Positions 60,483 through 64,000 of a stretch of 64,000 bases of DNA are shown one piece after another. Source of the DNA: Piscinibacter gummiphilus (GTDB lineage Bacteria > Pseudomonadota > Gammaproteobacteria > Burkholderiales > Burkholderiaceae_C). Where the stretch lies: positions 4,761,001 through 4,825,000 of the forward strand of contig NZ_CP136336.1 of assembly GCF_032681285.1 (NCBI RefSeq), in the 5' to 3' direction. The translations under genes and the position numbers were made by a program. The stretch's first letter is position 1. The number at the start of each line of letters is the position of its first letter. The notes beneath the pieces were generated by a model that saw only the letters and a program-made list of their open reading frames with translations, did no database searches and had not been told where the DNA came from.

Positions 60483-60511
60483 TTGACGAGTCGGGTAAAG
60501 AGTCTTTACAG
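60483..60511 (+). promoter_or_regulatory. Predicted sigma70 promoter of the small unit
   Basis: A -35 TTGACG and a -10 TTACAG are separated by exactly 17 bases. It lies just right of the TGTCG operators, so a repressor bound there could block it. Confidence 0.6.
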
Positions 60512-60559
60512 TCCGCTTCCTCGCTCGCAAGAGCATCCGTTTTCAATCAAGGCTGCATC

Positions 60560-60721
60560 GTGACAACCCGCAAGCACATCGACCGCAACACGCAAGGAAG
60601 CGCCCAGCGCGACCTGCATGCGTTCGCCTGTGCATTCGGGGGCATCGCGATGACGTCGCTGGGTGATGCGCGGCTTGATCGCAGCGAGCCCATCACGACA
60701 CCGGGAAAGGGAGGCGCCTAG
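60560..60721 (+). CDS. Possible small protein of 53 residues
   Basis: A GTG at 60560 opens a short frame (MTTRKHIDRNTQGSAQRD and onward) with no domain I recognise. Support is contextual: a good promoter lies about 50 bases upstream and a strong terminator starts 31 bases after the stop. No Shine-Dalgarno site is clear, so the transcript could instead be a small non-coding RNA. Confidence 0.4.
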   Translation: MTTRKHIDRNTQGSAQRDLHAFACAFGGIAMTSLGDARLDRSEPITTPGKGGA

Positions 60722-60751
60722 GCGCACACCCTTCACGCTCTGCACCGCAGA

Positions 60752-60782
60752 GGCCCGGTTTCCGAAAGGAACCGGGCCTTTT
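60752..60782 (+). terminator. Intrinsic terminator of the small unit
   Basis: A 9-bp stem (GGCCCGGTT / AACCGGGCC) is extended by CC-GAAA-GG in the loop. It is followed by a run of four T residues. Confidence 0.85.
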
Positions 60783-61210
60783 GCTTTGCTGGACCCACCT
60801 TGGCGCATCGGCGCCCAGGTCGCGGCTCTCCGGAGCCGCAGCTCTTTAACAATTTGCCGCAGGACATGCGCCGGTACTGGCCGGAAAGCGTCCTGCACGA
60901 AGCGCGGAAGGCGAGCCCTCGTTCCACGGGGGCCGCCGACCGCCTCACTTCGGCTGTGCCCATGCACTCCGCAGTCCGCAAACCTGGTGTGGGCGGCTCG
61001 GGATGTGCATGGCGGCGTCGACCCCTGGACCCAGGTCGCACGCCAGCCCCTGTGCAGCGAGACACCGACGCCTGACGAGGCGCTCGCGTGTGGACACAGC
61101 CGAAGTGGGATTCGTATTGAACAGGAGCCTGCGTGGAGCTCACGCTTCGCAGGCGGAAATCGGCCGCAACGATTGGGCGGCGCCGGAACCCGTGACCGGA
61201 TGGACTTTTT
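60783..61210 (+). other. Leader region of the tRNA array
   Basis: I see no convincing coding region here. The stretch holds a boxA-like element at its start and two hairpins: GCAGGAC/GTCCTGC around 60858-60895, and GCCTGCG/CGCAGGC around 61129-61156. It probably forms the untranslated 5' leader of the array transcript. Confidence 0.5.
60841..60854 (+). promoter_or_regulatory. BoxA antitermination element
   Basis: GCTCTTTAACAATT matches the boxA of E. coli rRNA operons (GCTCTTTAACAA), the NusB/S10 binding site that protects untranslated RNA from Rho. It lies about 370 bases upstream of the first tRNA. Confidence 0.7.
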
Positions 61211-61286
61211 GCCGAGATAGCTCAGTCGGTAGAGCGGCGCGTTGAAAGCGCGTGCGTCGGGGGATCGAAGCCCTCTCTCGGCACCA
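61211..61286 (+). tRNA. tRNA-Phe (GAA), atypical T-loop
   Basis: This is a 76-nt cloverleaf with a 7-bp acceptor stem (GCCGAGA/TCTCGGC), an ACCA end, D-stem GCTC/GAGC, and anticodon loop TTGAAAG giving GAA. The T-loop reads ATCGAAG instead of TTCGANN, so the near-universal T54 is A and the T54-A58 pair cannot form. It is first in the array. Confidence 0.82.
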
Positions 61287-61293
61287 GTTGCAT

Positions 61294-61370
61294 ACCTCGT
61301 TAGCTCAGTGGATGAGAGCGCCTGCCGACGAAGCAGGAGGTCGCACGTTCGAATCGTGCACGAGGTGCCA
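61294..61370 (+). tRNA. tRNA-Arg (ACG), G33 instead of U33
   Basis: This is a 77-nt cloverleaf with a perfect acceptor stem ACCTCGT/ACGAGGT, discriminator G and encoded CCA. D, anticodon and T stems are complete (T-loop TTCGAAT). The anticodon loop is CGACGAA, giving ACG, but position 33 is G. U33 is almost invariant in elongator tRNAs and shapes the U-turn, so decoding would be impaired. Confidence 0.82.
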
Positions 61371-61378
61371 TCTTTCAT

Positions 61379-61533
61379 CTCGACGTAGCCAAGTGGTCGA
61401 AGGCATCTGCCTGCAAAGCAGACGGCGACAGCCCGCACCCGTTCGCTCTGGGCGGCGATAGCCGACCAGGACGTCGCTACGCGACGGGCCGAAGGCCGAG
61501 GGCAAAGCCCGAGCAATCGGGTCGTCGAGTCCA
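61379..61533 (+). tRNA. tRNA-Cys (GCA) with 69-nt insertion in the T-loop
   Basis: The two halves pair precisely: acceptor CTCGACG/CGTCGAG, discriminator T and CCA at 61530-61533, T-stem ACCCG (61437-61441) / CGGGT (61518-61522). Anticodon loop CTGCAAA gives GCA, and U73 is the Cys identity base. The T-loop is split as TTCG (61442-61445) and AAT (61515-61517) by 69 bases; joined they give the perfect TTCGAAT. The variable arm is 14 nt with a GGC/GCC stem, long for tRNA-Cys. Without the insert the RNA would be 86 nt. Confidence 0.75.
61446..61514 (+). other. Structured insertion in the tRNA-Cys T-loop
   Basis: The 69-nt insert can close on itself with GCTC/GAGC (using G57) and GGGC/GCCC around a bulged T. 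Inside are three hairpins: GGC-GATA-GCC, CGTCGC-TAC-GCGACG and GGCC-GAA-GGCC. An alternative GGGC-AAA-GCCC hairpin competes with the closing stem. It is too short for a group I intron. Confidence 0.65.
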
Positions 61534-61542
61534 TTCTTCTTT

Positions 61543-61618
61543 CTCGGTGTGGCGCAGTTGGCAGCGCGCGTGCTTTGGGAGCATGAGGCCGTCCGTTCGA
61601 TCCGGACCACCGAGACCA
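61543..61618 (+). tRNA. tRNA-Pro (TGG)
   Basis: This is a 76-nt cloverleaf with acceptor CTCGGTG/CACCGAG, whose C1-G72 pair is typical of Pro, and an ACCA end. D-stem GCGC/GCGC, anticodon loop TTTGGGA (TGG) and T-arm GTCCG-TTCGATC-CGGAC are all complete. This copy looks functional. Confidence 0.9.
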
Positions 61619-61643
61619 GCTTTTTCAGAACGTGCGTTGAGGA

Positions 61644-61717
61644 GTGACCGTAGCTCAAGGGTAGAGCCCCGGCTTGTGGCGTCGGTGGTGTCGGTTCGAG
61701 TCCGACCGGTCACCCCT
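61644..61717 (+). tRNA. tRNA-His (GTG), no encoded CCA
   Basis: The cloverleaf has acceptor GTGACCG/CGGTCAC, C73, anticodon loop TTGTGGC (GTG) and a complete T-arm. The base before position 1 is A rather than the encoded G-1 of bacterial tRNA-His. The 3' end reads CCT rather than CCA, unlike its neighbours. The variable loop is only 4 nt. Confidence 0.8.
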
Positions 61718-61743
61718 CAGCGCATGTGATTCATTCCTCAACC

Positions 61744-61828
61744 CCCCTCGTGGCGAAATAGGCAGACGCACCGGTCTCAGAAACCGGGGCCGCAAGGCAT
61801 GTCCGTTCGACTCGGACCGAGGGGACCA
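61744..61828 (+). tRNA. tRNA-Leu (CAG)
   Basis: This is an 85-nt class II tRNA with acceptor CCCCTCG/CGAGGGG, ACCA end, anticodon loop CTCAGAA (CAG), a long variable arm with a GCC/GGC stem and T-arm GTCCG-TTCGACT-CGGAC. It looks functional. Confidence 0.92.
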
Positions 61829-61833
61829 ACAAA

Positions 61834-61910
61834 CGGGGCGTAGTCGAGAGGCCTCAGACAGCCGGCTTTGACCCGGTGTTACGCAGGTTCGAATCCTGCC
61901 GCCCCTGCCA
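61834..61910 (+). tRNA. tRNA-Gln (TTG)
   Basis: This is a 77-nt tRNA with acceptor CGGGGCG/CGCCCCT (C1 opposite T72, fitting the weak first pair preferred by GlnRS), G73 and encoded CCA. Anticodon loop CTTTGAC gives TTG. The T-arm GCAGG-TTCGAAT-CCTGC is perfect. It lies 40 bases before the HNH gene. Confidence 0.85.
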
Positions 61911-61950
61911 CTCAACCATCGAAACACTGGCTGCAAAAAGGAGGCCACCC

Positions 61951-62529
61951 ATGCACCAAGACAACCACAGCCATGTGCTGCAACTCGACCTCCAGGGCAC
62001 GCCCCAAGCGTGGATCTCGCTCGAACAGGCCGCCTTGCACGTGGCCACGGGCTCGGTCGCATGGGTGGATGGCGATGGGCCGCTCGCCACCTTGCGCGGC
62101 GGCTTCAACGTCATCCGCCAGCGCCAATCGCTGATCGAGGTGCACCCGATCGTCGCCCTGCGCGGTGCGTCGCGCATCAACCTGCACGACATCGTGCCGG
62201 CGATCACGAAGCACAAGCTCTTTCGCCGCGACCGCCACACCTGCGCCTACTGCGGCGAGGTGTTTGGCGACCGCGACCTGCAGTGCGAACACATCCAGCC
62301 CGAGTCGCGTGGTGGCGCCTGGAGCTGGATGAACCTCGTCACCGCCTGCGCTTACTGCAATGGCCGCAAGGCCGACCGCACGCCGGAGGAAGCCGGCATG
62401 CCCTTGCTGTACCTGCCTTACGTGCCGAGCCGCTTCGAGAACTTCCTGCTCGAAGGCCGCCGCATCCGTGCCGACGTGCACGAGTGGCTGGCCGCACGCC
62501 TGCCCAAGGGATCGCGTCTGCACGCTTGA
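61951..62529 (+). CDS. HNH endonuclease
   Basis: This 192-residue protein has an N-terminal domain of about 85 residues (VLQLDLQGTPQAWISLEQA) and a C-terminal HNH domain. The nuclease core has a zinc CxxC pair in TCAYCGEVF, the EHIQPESRGG catalytic histidine segment, NLVTACAYCNGRKADRTP with the second CxxC, and a basic end. AAGGAGG lies 5 bases before the ATG at 61951. The gene follows directly after the tRNA array, so DNA or tRNA may be its target. McrA/phage-type HNH proteins cut DNA; RNA cleavage here is only a hypothesis. Confidence 0.92.
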   Translation: MHQDNHSHVLQLDLQGTPQAWISLEQAALHVATGSVAWVDGDGPLATLRGGFNVIRQRQSLIEVHPIVALRGASRINLHDIVPAITKHKLFRRDRHTCAYCGEVFGDRDLQCEHIQPESRGGAWSWMNLVTACAYCNGRKADRTPEEAGMPLLYLPYVPSRFENFLLEGRRIRADVHEWLAARLPKGSRLHA

Positions 62530-62577
62530 GTGTGCGGGGGCGGTCCCGCCTCCACTCACTCAACCGAAAGACGCATC

Positions 62578-63597
62578 ATGAAGAACGAACAACTCCCAGC
62601 GCTCGACCTCAAGGTCAAGCAGCCGCCCGTGCTCTTCGGCAAGACGCAGGCGTTGATCGCGAAGCTGGCCGATCGCCTGGGCGGCCCGCTGGTCACCTAC
62701 TGGAACGGCCCACGCGGCTCGGTGTGCAGCAACGACGTGATCGCGCTGCACCACGTGCTCGCGAAGCTCGGCCGCCACTCCGTGCTGTACCTCTTCCTCA
62801 AGTCGGACGGTGGCAGCGGCCAGACCTCGCTGCGCATCGTGAACCTGCTGCGCCAGCACTGCGATCGCCTCGTGGCGCTCATGCCGCTGGAATGCGCGTC
62901 CGCCGCGACGATGGTGGCGCTCGGCGCCGACGGCATCCAGATGGGCCCGACCGCCTACCTGACCGCTGTCGACACCTCGCTCAACCACCCGCTGTCGCCG
63001 GTCGACCGTGACAACGACCGCGTGAGCGTGAGCCTGAACGAGCTGCAGCGCGTGATCCGCCTGTGGCGCGAGCAGGAGGGCGAGCATCCGGAGAACGCGT
63101 ACAAGTCGCTGTTCCAGTACGTACACCCGCTCGTGATCGGCGCGGTGGACCGTGCGGAGTCACTGTCGATCATGCTGTGCCGCGAACTGCTGGCCTATCA
63201 CGTCACCGACGCCGAGAAGGCCGAGGCGATCGCGACGGCGCTGAACGGCAAGTACCCGTCGCACAGCTACCCCATCCTGCTCGACGAAGCGGTGAAGATG
63301 GGCCTCAAGGCCGAGCGCATGCCGCTGGAAGTCAACGCGATGCTGCTGCAGCTCAACAGCTTCTACAGCGAGATGGGCCAGAAGGCGACGACCGACTTCG
63401 ACGAGACGCATGCCCACAGCAATGAGATCCTGAACATCTGGGAGTCGACCGGTGCACAGGTCTACTACCAGCAGGACAAGGACTGGTTCTACCGCGCCGA
63501 AGAGCGCCGCTGGATCACGCTGAACGACAACAGCGGCTGGCGTCGCATCGAGCGCGTGGTCAAGCGCATCGTGCGTTCGGAACTCCACGTCGCGTAA
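62578..63597 (+). CDS. Serine dehydrogenase proteinase (SDH/ClpP-fold) protein
   Basis: This 339-residue protein of the ClpP/SppA superfamily resembles the SDH_sah serine dehydrogenase proteinases. The oxyanion strand is LFLKSDGGSGQTSLRIV near 80-96. The nucleophile serine is expected in ECASAATMVALGADGIQMGP, followed by the family's TAVDTSLNHP segment. No signal peptide is present, so it acts in the cytoplasm. A C-terminal part of about 120 residues is aromatic-rich and unassigned. The 48 bases to the HNH gene suggest one transcript. Confidence 0.85.
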   Translation: MKNEQLPALDLKVKQPPVLFGKTQALIAKLADRLGGPLVTYWNGPRGSVCSNDVIALHHVLAKLGRHSVLYLFLKSDGGSGQTSLRIVNLLRQHCDRLVALMPLECASAATMVALGADGIQMGPTAYLTAVDTSLNHPLSPVDRDNDRVSVSLNELQRVIRLWREQEGEHPENAYKSLFQYVHPLVIGAVDRAESLSIMLCRELLAYHVTDAEKAEAIATALNGKYPSHSYPILLDEAVKMGLKAERMPLEVNAMLLQLNSFYSEMGQKATTDFDETHAHSNEILNIWESTGAQVYYQQDKDWFYRAEERRWITLNDNSGWRRIERVVKRIVRSELHVA

Positions 63598-63604
63598 CGC
63601 AACC

Positions 63605-63629
63605 CGCCCCGGGCCACCGACCCGGGGCG
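63605..63629 (+). terminator. Hairpin after the protease gene
   Basis: Perfect 9-bp arms enclose a 7-base loop, starting 8 bases after the protease stop. Only a short TT follows, so termination may be partial. Confidence 0.5.
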
Positions 63630-63759
63630 TTCACGAATCTTCTGCGAACGGCGAACTGCTCACAGGCAGAGGTTCGGGCAAAGCCCTGCCTCGCCGGTGT
63701 GTCGCTGCCGGAGTGATCTGTCGTGGCGGCACATGCCGCACGCCGGTCGCAGGGGAAAT

Positions 63760-63812
63760 AGGCCATCGAATCGGTCGCACTGCGCCGGGTTCGACCCCCG
63801 GGTGGCCTGCCA
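63760..63812 (+). ncRNA. 53-nt tRNA-like element without normal D and anticodon arms
   Basis: The acceptor pairs over 7 bp (AGGCCAT/GTGGCCT, last pair T-G), with discriminator G and encoded CCA. The T-arm CCGGG-TTCGACC-CCCGG is intact. Only 18 bases connect the acceptor 5' strand to the T-stem, against about 41 in a normal tRNA; they can form just CGC-ACT-GCG. No anticodon can be assigned. It could be a truncated relic or a tRNA mimic. Confidence 0.5.
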
Positions 63813-63889
63813 ACTGGATAGCTCAGTCGGGTAGAGCAGCACATTTCCAATGTGTGGGTCGCGGGTTCGACTCCCGTTCCAAAACTCCA
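63812..63889 (+). tRNA. tRNA-Gly-like (TCC), degenerate acceptor stem
   Basis: D-stem GCTC/GAGC, anticodon arm GCACA-TTTCCAA-TGTGT (TCC) and T-arm GCGGG-TTCGACT-CCCGT are all well formed. The acceptor strands AACTGGA and TCCAAAA pair in only four positions. The 3' end reads CTCCA. It begins at the last base of the preceding tRNA-like element. Confidence 0.6.
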
Positions 63890-64000
63890 GAAACCGGTCG
63901 CAAGACCACCGCCGAACGTGGGGCCGCAAGGCCTCATCAGCGGCGGCAGCCCGCACGTGGGGCACGCGGGGTTCGCGTGCACGGCAAGCCGAGGCGCTCG

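Follow-up and report, generated by a model that had tools for sequence, protein, structure and literature searches.

At the end of the 64,000-nucleotide stretch of Piscinibacter gummiphilus DNA analysed here (contig NZ_CP136336.1, positions 4,761,001 to 4,825,000; hereafter the window) lies a tRNA array that is followed by genes for an HNH endonuclease, an SDH/ClpP-fold protein, an SPFH (Band-7) protein and the RNA ligase RtcB. The array consists of seven plus-strand tRNAs of seven isotypes at 61211-61910, which ARAGORN assigns to Phe, Arg, Cys, Pro, His, Leu and Gln. A preliminary description of the sequence had reported seven isotypes in about 700 bases, and ARAGORN and the Rfam tRNA model agree on this; the Rfam scores range from 30.4 to 61.5 bits and all exceed the gathering score of 29, that of Cys barely. 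The HNH and SDH/ClpP-type genes that it placed downstream are supported by Pfam matches, and its two further tRNA-like elements correspond to a minihelix at 63760-63812 (TLR1) and to a Trp-like eighth element that ARAGORN calls on the plus strand at 63813-63885 (TLR2). Extending the sequence past position 64,000, as had been suggested, brought the SPFH gene and rtcB into view. The order downstream of the array is HNH, SDH/ClpP-fold, the two tRNA-like elements and then SPFH and rtcB, which starts about 1.3 kb past the end of the window and was identified by PF01139 at 427.8 bits. Upstream of the array are a divergent HTH gene, a palindromic operator within a promoter, and a leader peptide with a terminator. 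Coordinates are given in Table 1.

Table 1. Features of the array locus, with positions counted from the first base of the window.
Feature	Position	Strand	Basis or remark
HTH-type regulator, 131 aa	60062..60454	-	divergent from array; conserved beside related arrays
sigma70-like promoter TTGAC-N7/8-TAAAGANTMTTTACAGT	60483..60515	+	TTGAC 12 or 13 bases 5' of core
palindromic operator GTAAAGAGTCTTTAC	60495..60509	.	sole site with at most 1 mismatch in genome
leader peptide open reading frame, 53 aa, end PGKGGA-stop	60560..60721	+	PG-x3-A-stop conserved
intrinsic terminator AGAGGCCCGG..CCGGGCCTTTT, attenuator candidate	60749..60790	+	-27.8 kcal/mol
boxA-like GCTCTTTAACAA	60841..60852	+	0 expected in shuffles
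array tRNA-Phe(GAA), T loop ATCGAAG	61211..61286	+	ARAGORN, Rfam
array tRNA-Arg(ACG), G33	61294..61370	+	ARAGORN, Rfam
array tRNA-Cys(GCA), damaged	61378..61463	+	ARAGORN; Rfam 30.4 bits
array tRNA-Pro(TGG)	61543..61618	+	ARAGORN, Rfam
array tRNA-His(GTG), no G-1, no encoded CCA	61644..61716	+	ARAGORN, Rfam
array tRNA-Leu(CAG)	61744..61828	+	ARAGORN, Rfam
array tRNA-Gln(TTG)	61834..61910	+	ARAGORN, Rfam
HNH endonuclease, 192 aa	61951..62529	+	PF14279 53.5 bits, PF01844 48.4 bits
SDH/ClpP-fold protease-like protein, 339 aa	62578..63597	+	PF01972 32.9 bits, cut-off 31.3
structured RNA before SPFH, running past window end	63658..64000	+	7-locus alignment, RNAalifold
TLR1, tRNA minihelix: acceptor + T arm + GCCA, no anticodon arm	63760..63812	+	
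TLR2, tRNA-like, 4-bp acceptor stem, anticodon CCA here	63813..63885	+	29-locus alignment

Array and rtcB appear to have a control region in common. The region separating the HTH gene from the array contains the palindrome TAAAGANTCTTTA, and homologues of the HTH protein (43-75% identity) occur at 16 other loci, including five plasmids. The sequence TTGAC, part of a sigma70-like promoter consensus, stands 12 or 13 bases 5' of the palindrome core at 18 of the 18 sites listed, and the palindrome therefore overlaps the spacer of a sigma70-like promoter. With at most one mismatch, the operator core is present at 14 of 20 system loci, and 816 kb of other loci hold no exact copy and a single one-mismatch copy. 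This genome has one such site, before the whole locus. A search of 399 genomes of the order with the pattern TTGACN{7,8}TAAAGANTMTTTAC returned 13 sites in eight genomes, all of them SPFH-positive and RtcR-negative; the reversed pattern returned none. Twelve of the 13 sites are within 1.5 kb of an HTH gene, an array, SPFH, RtcB or HNH or, once (L280), of an odd tRNA only, and the thirteenth (L271), near a contig end, bears the same leader module as the others.

The arrangement is most informative in three genomes (G118, G157 and G342; loci L216, L220 and L234), where the HTH gene lies between SPFH and rtcB and each locus has two operators. In L220 and L234 one operator precedes a tRNA array-SPFH unit that has no adjoining HTH gene, and the other precedes rtcB. 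L216 has the same two-operator layout, with only the tRNA-like element before SPFH. The promoters at the two sites are each directed away from the HTH gene's own. A leader hairpin follows both operators in all three loci; on the rtcB side it is present in 3 of 3, with a matching peptide end in two. The same operator and leader hairpin therefore stand before the tRNA-SPFH unit and before rtcB in these relatives, and the leader module is also found before HNH-rtcB in G254. In the P. gummiphilus genome itself, a putative transcript from the one operator may extend as far as rtcB. Another contig of G157 hosts the operator-leader module of L280, and a lone odd tRNA without a clear anticodon lies about 330 bases 3' of it (L280 1100-1176, G157:C143).

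The leader itself has conserved features. Of 19 leader peptides, 16 terminate in PG-x3-A-stop; that of L220 has PGEASV at its end, that of L150 is shifted, and for L216 the slice is too short to judge. In 13 of the 16 leaders with a called hairpin the stop codon is 26-29 nt 5' of the intrinsic terminator, the distance in the other three being 22 (L149), 43 (L042) and 14 nt (L150). The hairpin pattern occurs in 18 of 20 system loci, against four strand-wise matches in 1.65 Mb of control strands, and L149 and L151-L153 carry the leader module despite a missing or two-mismatch operator. We aligned 17 chosen sites, leaving out L041, L042, L150, L153, L157, L277 and the array-side leader of L216. 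All 17 have the hairpin, and all have an invariant CCGGG before the stop codon that copies the 3' arm of the terminator and is able to pair with its 5' arm, CCCGG; CCGGG is also present in the seven leaders left out. For the aligned leaders RNAalifold predicts the terminator together with a hairpin surrounding the stop codon, with double-sided changes at 6 of 24 pairs. Beyond the terminator is the element GCTCTTTAACAA, which resembles the boxA of rRNA leaders. It is found with at most one mismatch in 7 of 14 leaders, and a genome search for its exact pattern hits this array alone, which lends no support to identity with the host's own rRNA boxA.

With a peptide that ends shortly before an intrinsic terminator, the leader is a candidate translation-coupled attenuator. 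It is also possible, if rather doubtful, that the hairpin is the ordinary terminator of a short gene and that the repressor alone exerts control. A strong hairpin 14-43 nt past a stop codon is seen at many gene ends, the terminator core never varies, and the proposed CCGGG antiterminator is without clean covariation; the last two points count against the attenuator. However, the array or rtcB lies beyond the hairpin, and the peptide end, its distance from the hairpin and the CCGGG are all conserved.

The preliminary description had suggested that the array tRNAs serve as decoys, sensors of tRNA damage or anticodon-nuclease substrates rather than as tRNA supply, because several of them break near-invariant features. 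These violations are confirmed. Position 33 is G in Arg and position 54 is A in Phe, the His gene has neither G-1 nor CCA, and ARAGORN shows two acceptor pairs of Cys as broken. Four arrays share the Phe T loop ATCGAAG, and we therefore regard it as conserved and not as simple decay. His without G-1 and CCA is also seen in L036, L040, L047 and L154, and both features are present in other arrays. A housekeeping copy of every array isotype exists elsewhere in the genome, so the array is not the only source of any of them. Identity of the array tRNAs is 65-82% with the host copy and 82-97% with their best match in other arrays, the two being tied at 82% for His.

Stem comparisons suggest that most of these genes encode real tRNAs. 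Across 144 stem pairs of the seven array tRNAs, compared with host copies, 54 show two-sided changes that are still paired, 12 one-sided changes and 4 breaks, and 74 are the same. We extended the comparison to the 145 of 159 tRNAs in 13 arrays, this one included, that have a same-anticodon tRNA in this genome, whose isoacceptors served as reference throughout. Two-sided changes kept pairing in 1107 cases, with 219 one-sided, 65 broken and 1564 unchanged; ARAGORN reports only well-paired genes, and broken pairs are therefore undercounted. The discriminator base is that of this genome's isoacceptor in 124 of the 145. Of all 159 calls, a few of which ARAGORN probably fitted poorly, 147 retain U33, 128 retain T54-T55-C56 and 151 have an encoded CCA. 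The 44 distinct host calls, which exclude the array's own and include three from an odd group at L034, have U33 in 42 and T54-T55-C56 in 44, and both U33 failures are calls without a clear anticodon.

We weighed the idea that the array tRNAs serve anticodon nucleases as decoys or sacrificial substrates, which RtcB recycles, and consider it unlikely. It gains from Arg G33, Phe A54 and the unusable look of His and Cys, and from the SPFH-linked elements, of which TLR1 has no anticodon arm and TLR2 here no full acceptor stem. Against it, array stems are kept by compensatory change, discriminators match those of the host, and U33 and the CCA end are largely retained; decoys would not need chargeable ends. 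On this evidence the array tRNAs appear mostly to be real, a divergent reserve rather than decoys, and the earlier suggestion survives for the two elements before SPFH and perhaps for His and Cys.

Two further observations concern odd tRNAs in this genome. The Cys element may contain an insertion of about 70 bases (window 61378-61540): an acceptor half CGTCGAG followed by TCCA at 61523-61533 matches Cys, and the true 3' end is possibly near 61533. The L034 group, at C1:3563585-3564488, comprises His, one tRNA without a clear anticodon and Arg(CCT). It lies about 13 kb from a second RtcB gene, 65% identical to the first, at C1:3577417-3578553 (L031, L035).

The two elements before SPFH are, from their predicted structure, tRNA mimics within a larger conserved RNA. 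This structured RNA covers about 430 nt upstream of SPFH and contains both TLR1 and TLR2. RNAalifold on seven loci gave 123 pairs, 30 of which have at least one double-sided change, and across these loci TLR2 combines a conserved body with a variable anticodon (Trp, Cys, Phe, Met, Pro, Ile and Ile). SPFH matches at E up to 1e-50 occur in 32 of the 399 genomes of the order. We aligned TLR2 from 29 of 35 SPFH loci; L175, L176, L189, L193, L195 and L196 were omitted because the T-arm pair is missing from the expected layout. In the 29 loci, 95.1% of TLR2 cells are paired, whereas shuffled alignments reach 77.7% and slid controls no more than 47.0%, and there are 87 double changes compared with 25.7 in shuffles. 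All five pairs of helix 1 and all five of helix 3 change on both sides somewhere. By reading, the anticodon arm cannot hold a 7-nt loop on a 5-bp stem in at least 10 of the 29, none of them among the seven RNAalifold loci; a maximal-stem measure gives 16 of 29 but overcounts loops that are not 7 nt long.

No Rfam family but tRNA reaches its gathering score in the stretches scanned, which cover the mimic RNA before SPFH-RtcB operons, and YrlA (RF02553) scores 17 bits against a cut-off of 69. A tandem covariance model, R1, was rejected as a specific marker, with matches in all 369 genomes of the class at E up to 1e-6. Five of the 29 foreign loci that it fetched precede SPFH, including all three above 90 bits. 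The conserved RNA also precedes RtcR-controlled SPFH-rtcB operons. Burroughs and Aravind reportedly described, in 2016, SPFH/Band-7 modules with a novel tRNA-like RNA in RtcB systems. An SPFH gene preceded by a tRNA-like RNA and linked to rtcB is what we find here, and the RNA is probably theirs.

SPFH genomes divide by their mode of control. RtcR is present in 15 of the 32 and missing from 17, and in 15 of 15 its match lies 0.6 to 2.1 kb from SPFH on the same contig. A sigma54-type site stands upstream of SPFH in 10 of 14 RtcR-positive loci but in 0 of 16 RtcR-negative loci; elsewhere in those 30 loci the pattern has five matches in 105 kb. The RtcR-positive sites precede SPFH and its tRNA-like RNA (L170, L176-L180, L183, L186, L187 and L190), both of which may therefore belong to the RtcR regulon there. 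The 17 RtcR-negative and 15 RtcR-positive genomes were also compared for what lies within 8 kb of SPFH. At least two tRNAs outside the tandem are found there in 10 of the former and 1 of the latter (Fisher p = 0.0028), HNH in 6 and none (p = 0.019), and HTH in 8 and none; these p-values ignore shared descent, and several stretches stop at contig ends. RtcB is found within the same distance in 11 of 17 and 15 of 15, and SDH in one RtcR-negative genome (this one) and no RtcR-positive one. One RtcR-negative genome that lacks RtcB near SPFH has RtcB beside HNH elsewhere.

The P. gummiphilus genome itself has no RtcR (CARF; PF06956; an E. coli control was detected), no RtcA cyclase (PF01137) and no TROVE/Ro60 (PF05731). 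The connection to RNA-repair loci raised in the preliminary description thus stands as regards rtcB beyond position 64,000 and the operator and leader hairpin that it has in common with the tRNA-SPFH unit in relatives, and is not supported as regards RtcR, RtcA and Ro60.

We next considered how the members of the locus are distributed. An SDH scan of genome contigs gave 214 relatives, of which the best 80 were examined. Seven have HNH nearby (L036, L037, L039, L040, L041, L042 and L047), in Piscinibacter, Ideonella, Variovorax and metagenome-assembled genomes; of these, RtcB is present in six, SPFH in five, a divergent HTH gene in six and tRNAs in all seven. The joint locus thus occurs in several Burkholderiales genera. 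L037, whose stretch begins at HNH, is without an operator. The other 73 SDH homologues have no HNH, SPFH, RtcB or array in the stretch examined. We rejected SDH as a marker of the system on this basis, and the functional link of SDH to the array suggested earlier is weak. SDH does sit between SPFH and RtcB in L036, L037, L040 and L047, and adjoins SPFH in L042. Its motifs ECASAATM and LTAVD are invariant in 12 of 12 aligned homologues, and it has no sequence relative in the PDB.

HNH proteins were matched in 147 of the 399 order genomes at E up to 1e-20, this genome included, and lone HNH paralogues without tRNAs are common in the order. One is in this genome (L158, C1:933357-933917), 52% identical, with no tRNA in the surrounding 7 kb. 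By the preliminary description, HNH/SDH homologues that elsewhere were never close to tRNA arrays would have spoken against its proposal; close HNH homologues do lie in arrays, and most distant ones do not. Of 25 loci with an HNH 49-55% identical (L121-L145), both tRNAs and RtcB accompany HNH in L143 and L144, whereas neither a query protein nor a tRNA is present within 3.5 kb in the remaining 23. Among closer relatives (68-82%), RtcB is found in L154, L155 and L157, L155 being without tRNAs. PADLOC returned HNH-core matches only for the HNH protein, mostly to PtuB and some to Cas9, and no match for the other four proteins of the locus.

Plasmids also carry the HTH-array-HNH part of the locus. 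We examined 13 of 84 plasmid and 1 of 120 phage HNH match records. Five plasmid records (HNH 67-73% identical) have HTH, 10 to 27 tRNAs and HNH, with SPFH, SDH and RtcB missing within 16.5 kb around HNH. Nine more distant plasmid or phage HNH genes lie within arrays in L159, L160, L163, L164 and phage L167 and outside them in L161, L162, L165 and L166; three IMG/VR relatives start at the stretch edge, so that the array side is out of view. In L159, a Nostoc sp. PCC 7524 plasmid, the HNH gene is directly 5' of a 20-tRNA array, and the pairing of HNH with arrays therefore spans phyla. The Methylibium petroleiphilum PM1 plasmid RPME01 (L149) has a 27-tRNA array, interrupted by AlkB-like and HD-domain genes, together with HTH, an operator-like site with two mismatches, the leader module and HNH. 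The tRNA array on plasmid 3 of Variovorax sp. RA8 encloses a gene for an RNA ligase family protein (L152 5659-6720), another sign of RNA repair beside arrays.

These plasmid units, and the HNH tRNA array units known from plasmids and phages, lend some weight to the idea that a mobile anti-defence array landed beside an unrelated SPFH-rtcB operon and that the link to repair is accidental. We find this improbable, since in one genus three genomes have the operator and leader hairpin in front of rtcB alone and a fourth has them in front of HNH-rtcB, and since the joint locus recurs across genera. It is very improbable that the array merely adds tRNA supply for the codon usage of the locus or of imported genes, with rtcB unrelated: most array tRNAs do look functional, but their isotypes are already covered by housekeeping genes, array composition differs between loci, and the promoter has a palindrome and a terminator downstream.

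We propose, with somewhat more confidence than doubt, that the locus forms a single regulon, under repression and sensing translation, through which damaged tRNAs are replaced and cut ones resealed. The divergently encoded HTH repressor would sit on the promoter palindrome and keep the locus off. Once it is lifted, transcription would enter the leader with its short peptide and terminator. When the leader is fully translated, the ribosome at the stop codon would cover CCGGG and the terminator would form; when translation falters, for example because tRNAs are cut, CCGGG would pair with the 5' arm of the terminator and allow read-through into the array. The array would then supply real, divergent tRNAs in place of damaged ones, RtcB would reseal broken RNAs, and SPFH, accompanied by a tRNA-mimic RNA of its own, would act as a membrane scaffold. 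The likely role of the SDH/ClpP-fold protein is that of a protease partner of SPFH, and HNH, the usual companion of tRNA arrays, is probably a mobility or homing nuclease.

A more specific version would make the locus a self-contained module for both immunity and recovery against tRNA-cutting toxins, in which the attenuator, on failing translation, releases tRNAs resistant to anticodon nucleases, the SPFH-linked mimic RNA captures or senses the nuclease, RtcB reseals, and a single dedicated repressor governs the whole. We offer this version only tentatively.

Several observations weigh against the regulon of replacement and resealing. The HTH protein has no Pfam match, and its AlphaFold2 model (pLDDT, the predicted local distance difference test score, 77.7) finds phage and XRE repressors first in Foldseek but matches them weakly, with a best E of 0.1. 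L149 has an operator only if two mismatches are allowed, and L151-L153 and L212 have none. The two-operator genomes are all of one genus and thus few independent cases, and six of the eight operator-pattern genomes are likewise of one genus. In L042, which combines array, HNH, SPFH and SDH, RtcB is missing from the 12.9 kb examined, and no other member accompanies the 74% identical HNH of L156 (G240) over a stretch of equal length. RtcB is found in only 11 of the 17 RtcR-negative SPFH stretches, some on short contigs, and in 7 of the 17 there is at most one tRNA nearby. The His and Cys tRNAs of the present array do not look usable, and the roles given to HNH and SDH are guesses.

The purpose of plasmid, phage and chromosomal tRNA arrays is still debated, and the locus bears on it. 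Array and RNA ligase gene in one locus, with a common operator and leader hairpin in relatives, tie such arrays to RNA repair; the short leader may read translation failure, and a spare tRNA set joined to a repair enzyme suggests a combined "replace and mend" response to tRNA damage. Anti-defence and stress roles have been proposed for tRNA arrays (PMC12803027, PMC10264068).

Parts of the locus resemble known systems. Endonucleases, frequently of the HNH type, are the most widespread genes of mycobacterial plasmid and phage arrays (PMC5966550); such tRNA array units spread horizontally, and in one group about 87% have HNH and an XRE regulator (PMC5966550, PMC12803027). Our locus is like these units in its dense multi-isotype cluster, redundant with and divergent from host tRNAs, and in its HNH gene, with 7 tRNAs in 700 bases here and up to 27 in relatives. 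It differs in being chromosomal and joined to SPFH and rtcB; the term RtcB is absent from the main text of both papers. It is like RtcR-controlled operons (PMC7790460, PMC9650030) in RtcB and, in many relatives, in SPFH with a tandem tRNA-like RNA, and the SPFH protein PaFlo8 belongs to the P. aeruginosa rtc locus (RtcB-RtcA-RtcR) (PMC13086221). Unlike those operons, it is found in a genome without RtcR, RtcA and Ro60, and none of 14 array leaders has a sigma54 -24/-12 site by either pattern. YrlA is, like the two elements here, a tRNA mimic in an RNA-repair operon (PMC7790460), but its model stays below cut-off here and Ro60 is lacking. SPFH genes are often beside NfeD genes, and the ClpP-class protease PH1510 cleaves the SPFH protein PH1511 (PMC13086221), which is why SDH probably serves SPFH.

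The nearest functional precedent is the Anabaena TrcR regulon, in which a 26-tRNA operon, rtcB, a slipin gene and HNH genes are all under repression by TrcR until translation inhibitors lift it (PMC10272220). The parts are alike (tRNA array, RtcB, slipin/SPFH and HNH), but that regulon is dispersed over chromosome and plasmid, its repressor is of the RHH family, and neither a leader attenuator nor a tRNA-mimic RNA is mentioned in the available portion of the paper. As that repressor is of another family, much the same parts appear in a distant phylum with a different mode of control. Among the matches listed in the open-licence literature, none reports a DNA linkage between an array and rtcB, the Anabaena paper being nearest, and none describes an array-rtcB fusion with an attenuator-like leader. 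HNH tRNA array units, RtcB-SPFH operons and the dispersed Anabaena TrcR regulon are thus already known; the new evidence is the operator and leader shared by array and rtcB.

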